A stretch of 64,000 bases of DNA. Origin: Saprospiraceae bacterium (GTDB lineage: Bacteria; Bacteroidota; Bacteroidia; Chitinophagales; Saprospiraceae). The notes under the pieces were generated by a model. That model saw nothing but the letters and a program-made list of their open reading frames with translations, did no database searches and was not told the origin of the DNA. Where the stretch lies: the NCBI GenBank assembly GCA_016787345.1, contig JAEUUU010000159.1, positions 49,538-113,537 on the forward strand, written 5' to 3'. Below are positions 40,012 to 47,396 of this stretch, in pieces; within the stretch, counting starts at the first letter, position 1; every line of letters begins with the position of its first letter. Both the position numbers and the translations under genes were made by a program.

Positions 40012-40293
40012 TCGATTGAACGATTGGATGATTGAACGATTGGCCTCCCCCGGCCCCTCCAAAGGAGGGGAGCAGATTATGGAGGAGTTGACAATTGATT
40101 TTCAGTACTTTATGTGAAAACTGGAACGAGTTGTCACTGATTTGATATATTAAAATTTAAAACGTAGCATCAATCTACTTTAGATTCCCTGCAAAATACT
40201 GAAAACCAATCTATAATGCCTTCCGATCCGTTCCCCTCCTTTGGAGGGGCCGGGGGAGGCCAATCGTTCAATCGTTCAATCGCTCAATCGCTC
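40012..40293. mobile_element. MITE-like inverted-repeat element
   Basis: Two perfect 42-base inverted arms (40030-40071 and 40232-40273), each with an internal CCCCTCC-AAA-GGAGGGG hairpin, flanked outward by degenerate tandem GATTGAACGATT units. Inside them, a second inverted pair (ATTGATTTTCAGTACTTT near 40092 and its near-complement near 40205) surrounds an AT-rich centre. No open frame. The element reaches from the xth start codon to the pyrH stop codon. Confidence 0.75.
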
Positions 40294-41134: not shown

Positions 41135-42169
41135 TTATTGCGCAAAGCGCGCATCGCGCAAAAACGTTTCGTCGGTCAGGGTATTTAAAAACGCGATCAA
41201 TTGCGCTTTTTCTGCCGTGCTGAGCGGAATGCCGAGCGTGCCGTCCGACTGCCGCAGGAGCGGGTCGAGTGTGGGCGAATCTTTTACGCCGCCGCCGGCA
41301 TAGTGGTCCAGTACGCTTTCCAGGGTTTTGAATTTGCCGTTGTGCATGTAGGGGGCCGTGGCCGCGACGTTGCGCAACGAAGGCACGGCAAACTTGCCGA
41401 TATCTTCACTGAACGTACTCACCTCGGCCCGCCCTTTGTCGAGACTGAAATCGTCGATGACGCCGTTGTTGCGGAACGACTGGTCGGTGAACAAATCGGT
41501 GGCGTGGCAAGCAGCGCATTTTTGCTGAAAAACTGCCAGCCCTGCCAGTTCTTCCACGCTCATTTCACCGCCCGGCTCTTTCCTGACGTAGTGGTCGTAG
41601 CGGCTGTCGGCGCTCACCAGCATGGCCATAAATTGCGACATGGCTTGCAAAAAACGCGCGGTATTCACTTCCTCCGAGCCGAAGGCCTCGCGAAACAACC
41701 CCGGGTATTCCGGGTGGTTGCGGAGTTTTTCAAGCACGACGGCCGGACTTTCATCCATTTCCACCGGATTCTGGATCGGATTCAGCGGCACCAGATCGAG
41801 ATTGGGCACGCCGCCATCCCAGAAAAAGCTCGTCCGCCAGAGCATGTTTTGCACCGGCAGCGCGTTGCGTTTGCCAAAAAGGTTGTCGATCCCGTGGCTG
41901 GTGGGGTGGTCGGGATGGGTGAATGCCGCGAACGAAATATGGCAATCGGCGCAGGCAATGGTGTTGTCGCGGGAAAGAATCGGGTCGTAAAACAGTTTTT
42001 TCCCCAATGCAAAACCGGCCTCCGTCACCGGATTAGCCGACAGGTCGTACGCCGGCTGCGGGAAGTTGGAAGGTAGTTTGGGGCCGATAAACGGCTCTTT
42101 TTTGTCTTCTTTTTCACAAGATGAAAGCAGGAGCGTCAACAGGACGCCTGTGATCAATATCTTTTTCAT
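41135..42169 (-). CDS. Diheme cytochrome c peroxidase / MauG family lipoprotein (MbnH-like by context)
   Basis: 344 residues. Lipobox SSC (Cys18). Two haem c sites: CADCH (73-77) and CAACH (218-222), with Trp111 in 'NMLWRTSFFWDGG' between them and 'TAPYMHNGKF' (about 271-280) as the usual distal segment. CcpA-type members reduce H2O2; MauG-type members oxidise protein Trp. MbnH, a MauG-like enzyme, oxidises a Trp in MbnP to kynurenine and the two are often encoded together. An MbnP-family gene lies 2.4 kb upstream in the same direction, so an MbnH-like role is possible. The sequence alone does not decide between CcpA and MbnH. Confidence 0.85.
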   Translation of the reverse strand: MKKILITGVLLTLLLSSCEKEDKKEPFIGPKLPSNFPQPAYDLSANPVTEAGFALGKKLFYDPILSRDNTIACADCHISFAAFTHPDHPTSHGIDNLFGKRNALPVQNMLWRTSFFWDGGVPNLDLVPLNPIQNPVEMDESPAVVLEKLRNHPEYPGLFREAFGSEEVNTARFLQAMSQFMAMLVSADSRYDHYVRKEPGGEMSVEELAGLAVFQQKCAACHATDLFTDQSFRNNGVIDDFSLDKGRAEVSTFSEDIGKFAVPSLRNVAATAPYMHNGKFKTLESVLDHYAGGGVKDSPTLDPLLRQSDGTLGIPLSTAEKAQLIAFLNTLTDETFLRDARFAQ

Positions 42170-42179
42170 GGTCGTTGTT

Positions 42180-44123
42180 TTAATGAATCACCACCTTACG
42201 CTCGCCGTGCCAGTCTTTGCCTTCGATGCGGACGACATAGTTGCCGGCGGAAAAATGGGCAGTGCTCAATGTGATCAGATTGACGCCGGGCGACAGGTGC
42301 TCGTCCTGTTGCAGCACGAGTTTACCGTCGGCCGACCAAAGACTGATCCGGGCCTGCTCGCCGTACAAGGTGCGCAGGCGCAAGTGCAGATCGTCGGCCG
42401 TCGGGTTGGGGGCGACGTCGAGGGTAAATTGCGGCAAGGGGCCGCCCGTATCCGAGACCTCCTGCACCAGGTTGTTACGGCTCACGAGCCAGAGATCCGG
42501 GTCAAATACAAGTTCGGTGGGGCTAAAATCGAGTTGTGCCGTAAACACCTGGCCACTGTACGTATGCGGCAGTACCAGGGTGGTGTCGTGCACGCCGTCG
42601 GTCAGCCGGACCGGCACCGGCATTTCGAAGAAAGAAACGGAGGGGTGCGAGGGCGTTTGCTCCAGTTTGATGGTGACCAGCGCCGCGGGCGATTTGGACC
42701 AGCTGACGTCGTAGGAGGGGTAACCCTGGCCGTAGAACCAGTCGGCAAAAAATTCATCGAGATTTTTACCCGAGCTGGCTTCCAGATGCGCTTTCAGATC
42801 GGCGGTGCGGGCGTAGCGGTAAGCCAGGGCCGGGTCGTCGACGTAGTTGCGCACGCCGGCAAAGAAAGCGCTGTCGCCACTTACCCAGCGAAGCATGTGG
42901 AGCAGCATGGCGCCTTTGGCATAGGAGAGGCGGCCGCTGAAAATACGCCCGACGCTGGTGGTATCATTGACCCACACCGAGCCGTCGGGCTGGCTGGTGG
43001 CCGAGCTGATCCGCGCCGATTTGAAATTATACCATTGCTGGGGCGCCAGGTTTTCGTAACAAAGGCCGCTGAGGTAGGTAGCGAAGCCCTCATTGAGCCA
43101 GATGTCTTCCCAGGAACCGCAGGTGACTTTATCGCCAAACCAGTGGTGGGCGAGTTCGTGGGCCAGTAATTCGTACCCGAAATTGCCCACAAAGGTCATG
43201 GTCTGGTGTTCCATGCCGCCGCCCCAGCCGAACTGGGCGTGGCCGTATTTTTCATCCTGAAAAGGATAGAGGCCGAACAGTTCGTTGTACAACTGCATGT
43301 GGGCGGCATTCGCCGGAATCATAGACTGTGCCACGGCCAGGTTTTCGGGGTAGATGTAGTTGACCATCAAGGTGGTATCGTTGCCGTAAGGCACCTCGAT
43401 ATTGAAGGTGGCATAATCCGTCACCGCCATACAAACGAGGTAGGCCGCGATGGGATAGCGGTGTTTCCAGTGCGCCGTGGTAAAGCCGCCGGCAGTCACT
43501 TCGCCTTGCAAAAGGCCGTTGCTGGCCGGGTGGTTGCCTTCCGGTACGGTGATGAAAATATCGATGGAGTCGATCTTGTCGGTCAGCGATTGTTTGCAGG
43601 GCCACCATTCCATGGCGCCGTAAGGTTCAGAGAGCGTCCAAAGGACGGGTGTGCCGCTGTGTTGATTCACCTCGAACGAACCGAACCCGGTGGAGGTCGG
43701 TTCGCCCTGATAGAAAAAGGTGATGGAATCGGGCAATAACGCCGGCAGCGCCTGATTGAACTCGACGGTGAGCAGATCGCCATTGTGGGCGAACGATAGC
43801 GGAGCCCCGTGATACATGATGCTGTCCATGGTCAGGGCTTCTGAAAAATCGAAGTCCAGACTGCTCAGCGTTTCCGCCGGTTCGAAAATGGTGGTGATTT
43901 CACCCTGGATATACCGCACGGCCGGATCGACCGTCCAGTGAACGCGACAATAGCGGATGTCGCTTCGGTTGTCGGCGCTGTTCAGGCCGCTGCGGGGCTG
44001 GGCATGGTGGCGCAGCCAATGCGTTTTTTCAGATTCGACGATGGGGTCGAGCGGGTCGGAAACCTGGGCTTCCAAGCTCAGCGGAAATGCGAGCAGGGCC
44101 CAGAGGAGCAGTGTGGATTTCAT
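42180..44123 (-). CDS. Secreted M1-family metallopeptidase with T9SS sorting domain
   Basis: 647 residues. Signal peptide (MKSTLLLWALLAFPLSLEAQ), an M1 N-terminal beta domain, then the gluzincin core: 'YELLAHELAHHWFGDKV' (HEXXH, about 308-324) and 'WLNEGFATYLSG' with the third zinc ligand Glu. After the helical part come a beta domain and a type A T9SS C-terminal sorting domain ('DVAPNPTADDLHLRL' ... 'FSAGNYVVRIEG'). The peptidase should act at the cell surface or outside. Its ATG overlaps the stop of the YHS gene by one base and its stop is 10 bases before the diheme peroxidase gene, so the three are one transcript. Confidence 0.9.
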   Translation of the reverse strand: MKSTLLLWALLAFPLSLEAQVSDPLDPIVESEKTHWLRHHAQPRSGLNSADNRSDIRYCRVHWTVDPAVRYIQGEITTIFEPAETLSSLDFDFSEALTMDSIMYHGAPLSFAHNGDLLTVEFNQALPALLPDSITFFYQGEPTSTGFGSFEVNQHSGTPVLWTLSEPYGAMEWWPCKQSLTDKIDSIDIFITVPEGNHPASNGLLQGEVTAGGFTTAHWKHRYPIAAYLVCMAVTDYATFNIEVPYGNDTTLMVNYIYPENLAVAQSMIPANAAHMQLYNELFGLYPFQDEKYGHAQFGWGGGMEHQTMTFVGNFGYELLAHELAHHWFGDKVTCGSWEDIWLNEGFATYLSGLCYENLAPQQWYNFKSARISSATSQPDGSVWVNDTTSVGRIFSGRLSYAKGAMLLHMLRWVSGDSAFFAGVRNYVDDPALAYRYARTADLKAHLEASSGKNLDEFFADWFYGQGYPSYDVSWSKSPAALVTIKLEQTPSHPSVSFFEMPVPVRLTDGVHDTTLVLPHTYSGQVFTAQLDFSPTELVFDPDLWLVSRNNLVQEVSDTGGPLPQFTLDVAPNPTADDLHLRLRTLYGEQARISLWSADGKLVLQQDEHLSPGVNLITLSTAHFSAGNYVVRIEGKDWHGERKVVIH

Positions 44124-44395
44124 TATTGACCGGATGAAGAGCTGAGAAATTCTTGCGGATTGGCGGCAAATTCTTCTTTGCAGGAAGGATTGCAGAAGCC
44201 ATAAATTTTTCCCTGATAATGGGCGGTGTCGGTCACGCTGGCATCAACCTTCATGCCGCACACTGGGTCGGTGTCGGAGGCCAGCGCCACGGCTTCGGCT
44301 TTGGGAGTTGAGCCCGATTGGGGCTGTGACGGTTGCTGGCAGGAGGCAAGAGCGAAGACAAGGGCAAACAGGCTCAGAAAAACACGAAATTTCAT
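44123..44395 (-). CDS. YHS-domain lipoprotein
   Basis: 90 residues from ATG 44395. Lipobox LASC (Cys19). The YHS motif is 'DPVCGMKVD' (about 43-51) followed by 'YGFCNPSCKEEFAANP' (about 65-80), with three Cys that in related domains bind copper or other soft metals (as in CopA-attached YHS and TRASH domains). A stand-alone lipidated YHS domain would hold metal in the periplasm or at the surface. It is coupled to the M1 peptidase gene and lies downstream of MbnP. Confidence 0.85.
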   Translation of the reverse strand: MKFRVFLSLFALVFALASCQQPSQPQSGSTPKAEAVALASDTDPVCGMKVDASVTDTAHYQGKIYGFCNPSCKEEFAANPQEFLSSSSGQ

Positions 44396-44607
44396 AACAA
44401 CTGTATTTAATAAGAACAATAAAAATGACGCAGATGCAGGATTGTCGGGTGGGTTGTTTTGGTGTAAAATACTGCAAAAATCGTCAATACTGCATATCCG
44501 GTCAAACTGGAGGGCAGCGTATCAAAAAAGGAATACGCCACAGCGTGGATAAAAGGCGCGGGCAGCATTGCGCCGCCCGGCCAACTTATCAAATAAAAAA
44601 TTCAACT

Positions 44608-45423
44608 TCAATGGTTGTGGACATGGTCGATGGAGAACATGTCGGCGTAGTTGTCGGCCACCGTTTTGGAATACGGACCGGCGTGCGAGGTCGGGTTGGC
44701 GGCTACGCTGATGTTGGTCGGGTTGGTGAACATTTCCAGTACATCCACATACATGTGAACGTGCGGCGCTTCGCTGTTCTCCCGTACCTCTGCTGCTTCG
44801 TGCGGTGCGTCGAGGTGTACCTCTTTGAGGTTGTTGAGCGTCGGGCTGTTGAAGCCGCCGAACAAGCCGGTGTGGTATTGGAAGATACGCTGGCCGGTGC
44901 TCGGCTCAACCGGCGCCTGCGGCGAGGTACCTTCTACTTTGACAAAAATGTAGCCGGCATTCCAGCTCCAGTACATGCCGCTGGCCGCGCCGGCGGGGTC
45001 CAGGTCGCCGGTGCGCTCGCTCACTGGGCTGACGCTTTTGGCGCTGTCGACACCAATCATAAAGTGAATGTGCGAGTAGTCGCCGGCGGGGATGTTGGTC
45101 AGCGTGATTTCGCGGGAGTCCGCGTCGTCGCCGTTGCAGAGGAAATAGCAGTCATCTTTGGGCACCACGTATTCCGTGCCATCGGTGGAGACGAGCACAA
45201 AGTTGCTGACGAAATAGTTGAACGTGCTGAAATTGACGGTTTCGCCGGCGGCATTGACATAGTCTTTGCCGAATACCAGTGTTTCGTCGCCGGCGCGGTT
45301 TTCAAATTCGATCACCACGTCGCCGAATCCGGTCGGAGTGGGATCGGGTTTAGTGTCGTCTTTACAGGCAGGCAGGGTCGTGAGCAGGAAGAGGGCCAGC
45401 AGGGGGAAAAGAAGTTTTTGCAT
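44608..45423 (-). CDS. MbnP-family metal-binding lipoprotein
   Basis: 271 residues. Lipobox LPAC (Cys20). The MbnP signature segments are present: 'FSTFNYFVSNFVLVSTDG' (about 65-82), 'IPAGDYSHIHFMIGVD' (about 111-126), 'MYWSWNAGYIFVKVEG' (about 150-165; Trp152 and Trp154 are candidates for oxidation), and 'PHVHMYVDV'. The last residues are 'DHVHNH', a possible metal site. Known MbnP binds Cu(I) after a Trp is converted to kynurenine by MbnH. Here MbnP is lipidated and lies between a Cys-motif outer-membrane protein and a YHS lipoprotein. Confidence 0.88.
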   Translation of the reverse strand: MQKLLFPLLALFLLTTLPACKDDTKPDPTPTGFGDVVIEFENRAGDETLVFGKDYVNAAGETVNFSTFNYFVSNFVLVSTDGTEYVVPKDDCYFLCNGDDADSREITLTNIPAGDYSHIHFMIGVDSAKSVSPVSERTGDLDPAGAASGMYWSWNAGYIFVKVEGTSPQAPVEPSTGQRIFQYHTGLFGGFNSPTLNNLKEVHLDAPHEAAEVRENSEAPHVHMYVDVLEMFTNPTNISVAANPTSHAGPYSKTVADNYADMFSIDHVHNH

Positions 45424-45441
45424 GATAAATAATAGAAATGG

Positions 45442-46353
45442 TTAAAAAATGTAGTTAATCGTTGCCATCCAGCGGTTTCGGGCGTCGATGGCGCCGTCGC
45501 CGAGGTTTTCGTAAACAGGTATTTGATAAGTGAATCCAATGGAGAAACGACCGGTATAGACTTCCAGGCCGCTGGTTGCGAGCGTTACGAGTCCGCCGGT
45601 GTTGTCTACCATTTCGCCTTTATCGCGATTGGGTTGCGCATAATCGCTGAATACACCCAGATTGGGTAGCAGGGTAAAGCGGCCGATTTTGTTCCAGTAG
45701 AAGATTTTGGCCGAGCCGCTCAGGCGGTTGCCAAAGCGGTATTCGTCGCTGTTGGCGGTATTAAGGCGGGCAATACCGTCGGTGCTCAAGCCCCAGGCGC
45801 CTCTGCGCAGGGTGTATGCCGCCGAAATCATAAAGTCGGTGCTGCCCGTACCGGGCTGCATATTGGGGTGTATCAATTCGCCTTCGGTGTTGTACAGGGT
45901 ATGTTTGCCGGTGGGTAATTTGAGTCCGCCGCCCAGGGTGAGCGTATGGCGCCACGACCTGTGCAGGCTGTCGCCGCTGTCGAAAACAATATAGTTGGCG
46001 AGCACGGAGACGTCGCCTATACCTTGCGTATGGATCGGGAGACCGTGTTCCGTGCGTTGAAAATCGTGGTACGGCGCCAGTGCCAGTATTTGCACGCGTT
46101 GCCAGGGATAAAAACGGGCCAGCAGGTCGATTGTGCGGAAATGTTCATCCGTCACATCGTCGCCGGCCTGCAAAGCCGCGCGGGTGTGTGAAGAATTGAA
46201 CTGTTGCTCCGACCAGCGCAAACCGATAAAATGCCGGTGAAACTGCGGGAGAATGCCAAAATAGTTGCCCCCGATTGAACACCCGCAAACGTCGCAGGCC
46301 GACATTGAAGGCATAAATGCCAACAAGGCCACTGCGATAAACAGTGTTCGCAT
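45442..46353 (-). CDS. Outer-membrane beta-barrel protein with N-terminal Cys motif
   Basis: 303 residues. After a signal peptide the mature protein would start near 'ACDVCGCSIGGNYFGILP' with a CxxCxC motif (Cys20, 23, 25). The remainder has alternating polar/aromatic strands ('FIGLRWSEQQFNSS', 'SVLANYIVFDSG', 'RNRWMATINYIF' at the C-terminus, ending in Phe), typical of porin/transporter barrels. A terminal metal-binding Cys cluster on a barrel fits metal handling, but the substrate is not known. It ends 18 bases before mbnP, so they are almost certainly co-transcribed. Confidence 0.78.
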   Translation of the reverse strand: MRTLFIAVALLAFMPSMSACDVCGCSIGGNYFGILPQFHRHFIGLRWSEQQFNSSHTRAALQAGDDVTDEHFRTIDLLARFYPWQRVQILALAPYHDFQRTEHGLPIHTQGIGDVSVLANYIVFDSGDSLHRSWRHTLTLGGGLKLPTGKHTLYNTEGELIHPNMQPGTGSTDFMISAAYTLRRGAWGLSTDGIARLNTANSDEYRFGNRLSGSAKIFYWNKIGRFTLLPNLGVFSDYAQPNRDKGEMVDNTGGLVTLATSGLEVYTGRFSIGFTYQIPVYENLGDGAIDARNRWMATINYIF

Positions 46354-46471
46354 ACAATTGAATTGTTAGTCTTGAATGGATAGCAATGACCCTCCACGTT
46401 GTCGTACAGACAACAGGATCGTCAGCAATGAAATGTGCTTTCGGAGATCGCGCTCCTTTGCCCGATGCTGA

Positions 46472-46879
46472 TCAGGGCTTGGCGATGAAATGCACTGTCT
46501 TGGTCGTCGTGTGCGCACTGTGATCTTCCACCACAACCGTAAGCGTCATCGGGGTGTCGCCCGACAAACCGGTGAAAGTGTGCAAGTGCTCGAAGTGAAA
46601 CTCGATTTCGTCGTGCACCGTCGGTTCTTCTTCAAAAACCACGGAGCCGTCGGAATCGCGGGTTACTTTGACCGACATTTCGTGCAGGCTTTCATCGGTC
46701 ACTTCCAGATGAATGTCCAGTGTACCGGTATAGCTGGCGCCTTCCGCGGGGCTGGTAATCGTCAATACCGGCGCTTCGGTATCCTGATCATCATCGTGGC
46801 TGTGTTCGTCTTTGCAGGCAGGCATGGAAAGGGCCGCAAAAAACAGGGCAGCATAAGCTGCGAAGAGATATTTTTTCAT
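46472..46879 (-). CDS. DUF4625-like lipoprotein
   Basis: 135 residues. Lipobox MPAC (Cys22), followed by 'KDEHSHDDDQDTEAP', a His/Asp-rich stretch that could bind metal, then an Ig-like beta domain ('PVLTITSPAEGASYTGTLDI' start, 'LTVVVEDHSAHTTTKTVHF' end). It matches the look of DUF4625 proteins, which in Bacteroidota often occur beside MbnP; this association is from memory. The function is unknown. It precedes the barrel gene by 118 bases in the same direction. Confidence 0.72.
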   Translation of the reverse strand: MKKYLFAAYAALFFAALSMPACKDEHSHDDDQDTEAPVLTITSPAEGASYTGTLDIHLEVTDESLHEMSVKVTRDSDGSVVFEEEPTVHDEIEFHFEHLHTFTGLSGDTPMTLTVVVEDHSAHTTTKTVHFIAKP

Positions 46880-46998
46880 GATAGAAATGGCTGTTTTGAT
46901 TGAATCTCAAATGCATGAACGGCTGTATCGGTCGGCTCCCCGAAAGAGGGCGACAATACAAACATTGATGCTACACGAATCTTGACGGTGCAGTGGAT

Positions 46999-47379
46999 TC
47001 AAACAGCCGGCGGCCGGAAAACGCCGAACAGGTGAGCAGGGGCGCAGTACGCCGTGTAAGGGTGGAATTCGGCTTTCTCGATTTGTACGGCGCCATTAAT
47101 CAGCAATGGCATGGGAGCCTCCCAGAACACTTGCAGATCTTTGCCGTTGCGAAAGCCGTCGGGCAGGATCGGGGCACTTTTGTCAGTGTCCGATTCGGAA
47201 GCCTGTACCTTTTTTTTGAGTTGGCACTTGCCGTCGCAGTGGAGCTTCGGCCGGTTTTTATTCTCGCAATGTTTCATGTAAACGGCCTTATTCCATTGAT
47301 AATGAACAACCCAAGCGGTCCGGACAAAAGCCTGGCCCAGCATGGCGAACATCAAGAATATGGCGAATAGCCGTTTCAT
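46999..47379 (-). CDS. Small exported Cys-containing protein
   Basis: 126 residues from ATG 47379. An N-terminal helix (about 3-20) then a conserved-looking block 'YQWNKAVYMKHCENKNRPKL' and 'HCDGKCQLKKK' (Cys38, 48, 52), Lys-rich spacer, and a C-terminal 'TAYCAPAHLFGVFRPPA'. I recognise the pattern as a recurring uncharacterised Bacteroidota family with Asn-Lys-Pro-Lys-Leu-x-Cys, but it has no named function. Cys and His spacing would suit metal binding. It is the first gene of the copper-themed run. The -7 box nine bases upstream rules out the in-frame start at 47391. Confidence 0.75.
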   Translation of the reverse strand: MKRLFAIFLMFAMLGQAFVRTAWVVHYQWNKAVYMKHCENKNRPKLHCDGKCQLKKKVQASESDTDKSAPILPDGFRNGKDLQVFWEAPMPLLINGAVQIEKAEFHPYTAYCAPAHLFGVFRPPAV

Positions 47380-47388
47380 AATCAAACC

Positions 47389-47396
47389 CAAAGTTA
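47389..47396 (-). promoter_or_regulatory. TAnnTTTG -7 box heading the copper-themed cluster
   Basis: TAACTTTG on the minus strand, exact match, nine bases before the ATG at 47379; leader of about five bases. No clear TTG at -33. Confidence 0.6.

Follow-up and report, generated by a model that had tools for sequence, protein, structure and literature searches.

What task could join an MbnP lipoprotein and a diheme enzyme to a predicted outer-membrane channel and a small Cys-containing protein? The question is raised by seven genes on the minus strand (47379 to 41135) of a 64,000-nucleotide (nt) stretch of a Saprospiraceae bacterium genome (assembly GCA_016787345.1, contig JAEUUU010000159.1, positions 49,538 to 113,537; hereafter the window), each with an ATG start in an analysis of open reading frames (ORFs). 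In order of transcription, they encode the small Cys protein (here CysS), a His-rich lipoprotein, the channel (hereafter the barrel), MbnP, a YHS lipoprotein, an M1 peptidase and the diheme enzyme, which resembles MbnH, the partner of MbnP. The two have been called mysterious partners in a methanobactin survey. We judge it moderately probable that the locus serves copper acquisition, belongs to a type of cassette common in Bacteroidota and has a nascent-chain metal sensor as its first gene.

Pfam profiles recognize MbnP, YHS, M1, Por_Secre_tail and CCP_MauG in the window, and CysS and the barrel match no Pfam family at E <= 0.01. A first-pass annotation made from the sequence had listed seven same-strand genes, an MbnP with WSW (W152 and W154), HVH and a C-terminal HVHNH, and a barrel with CxxCxC at its mature start (ACDVCGC); all are present on the minus strand as it described them. 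Its statement that the genes are tightly spaced holds only in part (gaps of 119, 118, 18, 212, -1 and 10 nt), and a terminator-like hairpin separates the MbnP and YHS genes. Terminator-like sites in the region number 11, against 8.9 expected. The genome as a whole holds four MbnP matches, two barrels, one CysS, one SCO1 away from the locus and eight distinct CCP_MauG genes (nine matches). The gene set is not named in the titles and abstract openings of the literature found, a coverage that leaves out most subscription journals and supplements.

The arrangement exceeds chance because full same-strand quartets of CysS, CxxCxC barrel, MbnP and MbnH recur in three sets of loci (68/80 loci found through MbnP, 27/40 barrel loci of the phylum and 12/26 barrel loci of the family) and because, in 395 phylum genomes, MbnP is no more than 6 kb away from 41/48 of the strongest barrel matches (a listed CysS from 36/48). 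The barrel, grouped with MbnP and MbnH at first reading, thus belongs with them in many genomes. Profile searches found the barrel in 128, MbnP in 97 and CysS in 153 of the 395 genomes, and the neighbourhood count used the 104 strongest barrel matches (E to 3.9e-9), 150 listed CysS matches out of a larger number and 124 MbnP matches, three of them below the family cut-off. The 80 MbnP loci are the best 80 of 534 in named genomes and are biased toward window-like MbnPs; anywhere in these loci, MbnH is present in 79, CysS in 77 and the barrel in 69. Their titles name Saprospiraceae, Chitinophagaceae, Cytophagales, Sphingobacteriales and others, with single Ignavibacteria and Kapaibacterium labels (L163 and L187); Dyadobacter fermentans (L212) and Chitinophaga ginsengisegetis (L191) are among the species that carry the cassette. 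Within the family, 43/100 genomes hold a barrel match; 30 stretches were taken, centred on these matches or on further MbnP and barrel genes of the source genome, and the 26 from other genomes comprise 12 full quartets, nine loci with CysS and barrel only, four with the barrel alone and one with a barrel and a cut MbnP. Among the phylum barrel loci, 26 of the 27 quartets are ordered CysS-MbnP-MbnH-barrel, whereas the window has CysS-barrel-MbnP-MbnH, so that the same four genes occur in two orders, and 11/40 carry neither MbnP nor MbnH. On plasmids, the searches found no more than a distant barrel in Hymenobacter and two partial MbnPs in Deinococcus.

Variants of the locus were also encountered. 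L134, from a Saprospiraceae metagenome-assembled genome (MAG), is a near twin of the window locus with an identical MbnP, and L161, on a contig labelled as a Comamonas MAG, carries a typical Bacteroidota cassette and is probably misbinned. The three further MbnP genes of the source genome (L046-L048) have no recognized CysS or barrel alongside; one encodes a long protein (365 amino acids, aa) and is followed by two tandem MbnH-like genes. The second CxxCxC barrel of that genome (L045, 25379-26269 of its contig, 39% identical) lies in a stretch without an MbnP, MbnH or CysS match. In L053, from the same genus, a CysS truncated past its Cys motif (82 aa, no PP) precedes a barrel and an M1 gene, with no MbnP, MbnH or YHS recognized. 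The operon of L110 and L113-L116 runs CysS, YHS, SCO1, superoxide dismutase (SOD), a second CysS, MbnP, MbnH and barrel; the SCO1 and SOD assignments come from Pfam tests on L110, whose sequence clusters L113-L116 share. In L128, L130, L131 and L132, distant barrel relatives adjoin another protein cluster in place of MbnP; a Pfam test of its L130 member gave DUF3179. Located 5' of SCO1 in L168, L192-L194, L204, L206 and L210 is an ORF of 145-171 aa that resembles a lipoprotein gene; the four copies read (L168, L193, L206 and L210) are Met-rich, and that of L193 has no Pfam family. A test identified DUF2911 in L200, and likeness suggests it in L094, L152, L172 and L205.

MbnP and an MbnH-type enzyme were correctly recognized at first reading. 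The window MbnP scores 172.7 bits against PF20243 (cut-off 27) and lies below the cut-off of the NCBIfam equivalog MbnP_like_WxW (43.3 vs 140 bits), which makes it a member of the superfamily rather than of this equivalog. All 58 aligned MbnPs keep W152 and W154, a WxW-type motif is present in 137/139, and H184, conserved in at least 90%, aligns with a His of the Methylosinus MbnP. The predicted structure (predicted local distance difference test, pLDDT, 91.5) has six matches at E <= 0.001, all of them Methylosinus MbnP chains (7l6g, template modelling (TM) score ~0.5). The record of 7l6g mentions a four-Cys motif; the window protein has two Cys residues beyond the lipid Cys. An association between the C-terminal motif of MbnP and the barrel (91/110 vs 7/29, Fisher p 5e-9) is not claimed because it is not significant once relatedness is considered (median p 0.25 in a tree-aware test with independent pairs on a FastTree tree, the looser motif H-x-[HE] and 137 rows after identical ones were dropped).

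As for its partner, MbnH converts a Trp of MbnP to kynurenine, and in MauG Tyr294 is an axial heme ligand. A profile of 16 diheme relatives gives 294 bits to 6e1c, which we take to be MbnH (its structure record says Di-heme enzyme), at most 228 bits to CcpA-type peroxidases and at most 172 bits to MauG. At the axial-ligand column, the window enzyme has Y290 and 6e1c has Tyr, whereas the CcpA-type structures 3o5c and 1iqc have Met; Tyr occupies this column in 123/126 aligned entries (a few of them duplicates), the rest having Phe or Trp, and in all other CCP_MauG genes of the source genome except one with Phe. Since 6e1c scores highest and the ligand column is Tyr, the enzyme is, as far as profiles and alignment report, MbnH/MauG-like and not CcpA-type. 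NCBIfam agrees in giving MbnH as the best family, below the equivalog cut-off (209 vs 362.85 bits). The first-pass annotation had left room for an ordinary peroxidase grouping with CcpA, and both the profile scores and the ligand column speak against one.

The barrel is predicted to adopt a 12-strand fold of the COG4313/FapF type: the model, built with 51 sequences (pLDDT 86.9, predicted TM score 0.82), has 12 long strands or strand pairs, and its best matches among solved structures are FapF (TM 0.66) and the COG4313 channel 4rl8 (TM 0.62). The COG4313/Phenol_MetA_deg Pfam profile does not match the window barrel and matches 1/25 aligned members. A CD.CG-type motif is present in 66/67 barrels of 280-370 aa; all 51 aligned sequences have C20 and C23, and at least 90% have C25. 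The lumen of the COG4313 structure is blocked by ~14 N-terminal residues that fold inward (PMC4493636). The corresponding segment of the window barrel begins with ACDVCGC, and a Cys cluster in such a plug would be a natural Cu(I) relay or gate. The same fold relatives allow for other cargo, as the barrel could be a FapF-like secretion pore for MbnP or another polypeptide, or, given that COG4313 channels have been linked to hydrophobic substrates (PMC4493636), a channel for a small hydrophobic metal chelator. We regard this as distinctly improbable: MbnP, as a lipoprotein, probably carries its own export signal, and a conserved Cys cluster is not mentioned for COG4313 channels in the available text of their report (PMC4493636).

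CysS sits at the operon head. TAnnTTTG, the -7 promoter consensus of Bacteroidota, occurs within 150 nt upstream of CysS in 105/159 cases, against 13 expected from mononucleotide shuffles, and within the same distance of MbnP, MbnH and barrel genes in 6/137, 8/136 and 4/137, respectively; its 28 matches in the window are no more than chance, and it is their position that matters. The gene is not always first: in 21/159 cases an ORF on the same strand, 150 aa or longer, ends no more than 60 nt upstream. Measured from the first ATG of each ORF, the gap that follows CysS has a median of 141 nt to MbnP (n=85) and 73.5 nt to the barrel (n=42), compared with 11 nt for MbnP-MbnH (n=125) and 10 nt for MbnH-barrel (n=77).

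The anatomy of CysS fits this position. The window protein has an N-terminal hydrophobic segment (by eye), the motif C38-x9-C48-D-G-K-C52 and, separated from C52 by 70 residues, PP at 123-124 within a C-terminal FRPPAV-stop. Across relatives the core reads C-x9-C-x-G-x-C, with x9 spacing in 150/159 sequences that have a core. The core combines with a PP within the last 30 residues in 157/161 unique CysS; the other four are cut at the locus end (L192), have PP with a degenerate core (L186 and L159) or are truncated (L053). The PP lies a median of three residues from the stop, mostly 2-4, and F[HRKQ] precedes it in 122/157. From the last Cys to PP the distance has a median of 67 residues (interquartile range 66-68, range 61-86, n=157). 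In the other cassette proteins, PP in the last 30 residues is found in 0/140 MbnPs, 2/138 MbnHs and 4/140 barrels.

The best reading of this anatomy is a leader ORF that would act as a nascent-chain metal sensor; the first-pass annotation, which treated CysS as a plain small Cys protein, missed it, although CysS tells more about the locus than any other gene. A less likely explanation, although the most serious of the rivals, is that CysS works as a finished protein, namely a periplasmic copper-binding protein or chaperone anchored by its N-terminal helix, with FxPP as a structural or docking element. The Cys core is invariant in 22 aligned members, the hydrophobic segment has no obvious consistent cleavage site by eye, and other cassette proteins bind metal, all of which would suit such a protein. 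However, its fixed Cys-to-PP spacing goes with a linker of ~14% identity (33 sequences of equal length), which a folded protein should conserve more, and the PP next to the stop, the head position, the promoter motif and the long gap fit a leader ORF better.

Two described leaders share this anatomy. CruR is an exported DUF2946 protein with a CXXC motif and a RAPP three residues from its end, 45 residues apart (conserved to one or two); it is the first gene of a copper-repressed operon of a TonB-dependent transporter (TBDT) and a PepSY protein, with a gap of 162 nt, and its signal peptide is dispensable for regulation (PMC9426467). The cytoplasm has been proposed as the site at which CruR senses copper. 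According to PMC9973294, CutF has a signal peptide, CxxxC, a C-terminal PP and periplasmic sensing, and it controls a copper oxidase; 40% (normalized) of the CutF-like proteins counted there are Bacteroidota. CysS may thus be among these, possibly in list D of that paper. The window protein passes the paper's filters (<150 aa, PP in the last 15 residues and a same-strand gene within 1000 nt; here 126 aa, PP at 123-124 and 119 nt). The words MauG, peroxidase, CCP and MbnP do not occur in its main text. A CruR-headed TBDT has been tied to copper for respiratory oxidases in a 2026 paper (PMC12914433), as has its PepSY partner (PMC13038864). Arrest by CruR and CutF is described as awaiting experimental proof in PMC10987492, where further candidate arrest peptides with a proline end are reported from Bacteroidota, encoded ahead of sec genes. 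By its anatomy, CysS appears to resemble CutF/CruR leaders, and membership in their family is not claimed.

A second leader type was seen beside CysS. When CysS was considered as a DUF2946 homologue, the best matches of that profile in 40 relatives (two over the cut-off) proved to be different ORFs with an RGPP end. In L245, L246 and L247, from genomes of the same genus, such DUF2946-type ORFs (two over the Pfam cut-off) lie directly 5' of genes that look, by eye, like TonB receptors.

CysS genes away from the cassette indicate what these leaders may control. In the phylum genomes, 83/150 typed CysS matches are near neither MbnP nor the barrel. Twenty loci without MbnP within 6 kb were inspected (L227 has a barrel beside CysS, and L221 has MbnP 6.2 kb off), 16 of which have a neighbour of 675-804 aa. 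A Pfam scan that covered 37 of their 63 listed neighbours found 16 TonB plug domains, three PepSY_TM and one each of PCuAC, SCO1, COX1, CusB-type, OEP and SOD, and our own SCO profile marks 5/20 of the loci. When five of the TonB proteins were typed with NCBIfam, one scored best as a copper receptor and four as siderophore type, all below cut-off. These four, together with the SOD genes of some operons, would suit an explanation in which the set serves another metal, e.g., iron, or peroxide chemistry, and the copper link of MbnH and MbnP is a coincidence of annotation. We give this explanation little credence in view of the SCO1, PCuAC, COX1 and YHS neighbours and of the fold match of MbnP.

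Copper acquisition is the reading that the relatives of MbnP favor. CorA, a copper protein of similar function, binds Cu(I) through two His residues close to a Trp-derived kynurenine, and pairs of the CorA/MopE type are copper-repressed and proposed for acquisition (PMC3912023). The first-pass annotation had proposed a copper capture or export route. Its copper part is supported by SCO1 in 10/80 and YHS in 8/80 MbnP loci, by one copper-receptor-like TonB protein and one PCuAC at other CysS loci, and by the CorA/MopE role; of the two directions, import seems the likelier. The converse, that the cassette removes or buffers excess copper by export or periplasmic detoxification, is improbable in our view. 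It could draw on the YHS and His-rich proteins, on the CusB-type and OEP-type genes among the 37 CysS neighbours and on the copper oxidase controlled by CutF (PMC9973294). Against it stand the copper repression of the closest characterized pairs (PMC3912023), the dominance of TonB receptors in other CysS neighbourhoods, the SCO1 genes of MbnP loci and the finding that none of the seven window genes encodes a P-type ATPase or a multicopper oxidase, families that were not searched for in relatives.

The accessory genes are less constant. Anywhere in the 80 MbnP loci, and with our own small profiles for SCO1, YHS and M1, the His-rich protein is found in six and M1 in four; in the same-strand cassette, YHS is present in six and M1 in three, one of each being the near twin L134. 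M1 stands in the cassette at L134, L140 and L141, and also at L053. YHS and M1 are therefore mostly local extras, too rare in same-strand cassettes (6/80 and 3/80) to be core parts, and the idea that the YHS protein and the type IX secretion system (T9SS) peptidase are core components was dropped. The His-rich protein is present in 18/26 family, 2/40 phylum and 6/80 MbnP loci. It had been called DUF4625-like; DUF4625 matches 5/16 aligned members (E <= 0.1), but not the window protein itself.

A surface location, as first proposed, is plausible for MbnP and less sure for MbnH, judging from K-(D/E)2 after the lipid Cys of MbnP, MbnH and the His-rich protein. The lipoprotein export signal of Capnocytophaga is K-(D/E)2 or Q-A-(D/E)2, best as C-X-K-(D/E)2, and other Bacteroidetes have related acidic signals (PMC5080379). 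The window MbnH has the optimal form (C-E-K-E-D); MbnP (C-K-D-D) and the His-rich protein (C-K-D-E), both missed by the lipobox pattern and read by eye, have K at +2, a less efficient arrangement in Capnocytophaga, and the YHS lipoprotein (C-Q-Q-P) has no surface-export signal.

To our knowledge, copper passage across the Bacteroidota outer membrane is little described, and the following route can be proposed. Transcription would start at CysS, a small exported protein whose translation would serve as the metal sensor. With F-x-P-P at the active centre of the ribosome, the Cys motif would be ~67 residues away from it (70 in the window protein), about the length that spans ribosome and translocon, so it would stand at the periplasmic mouth while translation slows. 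By altering the pause, copper at that site would decide the expression of the downstream genes. A ruler longer than that of CruR (67 vs 45 residues) would be expected if sensing takes place on the periplasmic face of the translocon. On the surface, lipoprotein MbnH would oxidize a Trp of lipoprotein MbnP, giving a kynurenine/His Cu(I) site, from which copper would enter the COG4313-type channel with its CxxCxC lumen plug and, in the periplasm, pass to chaperones (SCO1 and YHS proteins) that supply respiratory oxidases. The fullest version of this proposal is tentative, and we think it rather doubtful: a TonB-independent copper import in Bacteroidota in which surface MbnP, matured by MbnH, loads a channel with a Cu(I)-binding Cys plug, and in which a new arrest-peptide family, with its Cys core, 67-residue ruler and FxPP next to the stop, senses copper where the translocon opens to the periplasm and governs the set, the same leaders controlling TonB-type metal receptors elsewhere in the phylum.

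Several observations weigh against a copper-acquisition cassette under a nascent-chain sensor. Gene content and order, recurrent linkage, the head position and motif spacing of CysS, the predicted barrel fold and the MbnP and MbnH-type assignments come from the sequences themselves, whereas copper as the ligand, arrest, kynurenine, surface exposure, import and every hand-over are inferred from family likeness and gene neighbours. The parts also live apart: 14/26 family barrel loci have no MbnH, 13 of those 14 also no MbnP, and 78/124 phylum MbnP matches have no listed CysS within 6 kb. The exact export signal is found in only 29/122 MbnPs and 8/91 MbnHs (unique relatives with a recognized lipobox), as well as in 6/22 His-rich, 0/6 YHS and 0/8 SCO proteins; a looser acidic pair is found in 61/122, 22/91, 11/22, 0/6 and 0/8, respectively. 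Residues 13-30 of the barrel, i.e., its N-terminus, have pLDDT <50 in the model, and hydrophobic molecules are the proposed cargo of COG4313 channels (PMC4493636). The DUF2946 profile of CruR does not match CysS (22 members at E <= 0.1 and 10 at E <= 10, in overlapping sets). CysS may sense other metals, because four of the five typed TonB receptors score best as siderophore type, and its one CusB-type and one OEP-type neighbour point to efflux in places. Finally, the 119-nt gap after the window CysS folds at -28.5 kcal/mol with a z of only -1.72 (dinucleotide shuffles), a weak hairpin, and across loci MbnP-MbnH gaps fold better than CysS-MbnP gaps (mean z -4.43 vs -2.37, mononucleotide shuffles); for both reasons an RNA switch behind CysS is not claimed.

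Two further features of the DNA deserve mention beside those listed in the table. MbnP-MbnH gaps of 40-250 nt in relatives fold strongly (49 gaps), which could lower the output of the enzyme relative to its substrate. Immediately 3' of the pyrH gene, the window has an exact 42-bp inverted repeat (40030-40071 and 40232-40273).

Table 1. Features of the cassette, with positions in the window, from the promoter-like motif to the diheme enzyme.
Feature	Position	Strand	Basis or remark
Promoter-like motif TAACTTTG	47389..47396	-	Fits the Bacteroidota -7 consensus TAnnTTTG; 9 nt 5' of the CysS ATG
CysS, putative leader ORF, 126 aa	46999..47379	-	No Pfam family; single match in the genome
Hairpin-forming stretch in the 119-nt gap 3' of CysS; possible attenuation region, weak	46913..46971	-	Folding energy
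His-rich lipoprotein, accessory	46472..46879	-	C-K-D-E following the lipid Cys
Predicted 12-strand outer-membrane channel, COG4313/FapF type (barrel)	45442..46353	-	Predicted fold, structure matches
C20-D-V-C-G-C25, mature start of the barrel	46279..46296	-	Conserved Cys motif
MbnP lipoprotein	44608..45423	-	PF20243, E 1.1e-50; C-K-D-D following the lipid Cys
W152-S-W154 of MbnP, candidate Trp-to-kynurenine site	44962..44970	-	Conservation of WxW
HVHNH at the MbnP C-terminus, candidate extra metal ligands	44611..44625	-	Sequence motif
Terminator-like hairpin, MbnP/YHS interval	44559..44579	-	Folding z -2.69
YHS-domain lipoprotein, accessory	44123..44395	-	PF04945, E 3.9e-11; C-Q-Q-P following the lipid Cys
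M1 family metallopeptidase bearing a T9SS sorting domain; added in one clade	42180..44123	-	Profile matches
MbnH-type diheme enzyme, lipoprotein (C-E-K-E-D), two CxxCH	41135..42169	-	CCP_MauG, E 2e-50
Y290 of MbnH	41300..41302	-	Column with Met in two CcpA-type structures, Tyr in 6e1c

The recurrent quartet supplies named candidate partners for MbnP and MbnH. If CysS is indeed a leader, metal-sensing nascent chains would exist in a second sequence family, with another C-terminal motif and a longer ruler, and one could then test cleanly whether the distance between the motifs reveals the site of copper sensing (the cytoplasm as proposed for CruR, the periplasm here).

Compared with known systems, the window pair is like methanotroph MbnP/MbnH (also CorA/CorB and MopE/SACCP) in both proteins by profile and in MbnP also by fold, and the two share WxW, a conserved His, two hemes and Tyr at the ligand column. 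Unlike in methanotrophs, there are no methanobactin genes among the seven window genes or the scanned neighbours; the pair falls below the NCBIfam equivalog cut-offs and lacks the four-Cys motif (two Cys beyond the lipid Cys); it usually stands alongside CysS and a CxxCxC channel; and it carries export signals in the window. The barrel shares with COG4313 channels and FapF the 12-strand fold and an N-terminal segment ahead of strand 1, but differs from them in the conserved Cys cluster of that segment, the missing Pfam match and the linkage to MbnP and MbnH. CysS is like CruR (Bordetella) and CutF (Rhodobacter) in being a small ORF with an N-terminal export-like segment, a Cys metal motif and PP a few residues before the stop at a conserved spacing, and in heading metal-gene operons (TBDT-PepSY). 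It is unlike them in having no Pfam similarity, in its motifs (CxNx4PxxxCxGKC and FxPP vs CXXC and RAPP), in its spacing (~67 vs 45) and in its downstream partners, MbnP, MbnH and the channel. Likewise, the copper TBDT operons of CrtA-CrpH (BfrG-BP2921) combine a leader ORF with copper entry at the outer membrane and oxidase supply, whereas here a non-TonB channel with MbnP and MbnH would replace the receptor.

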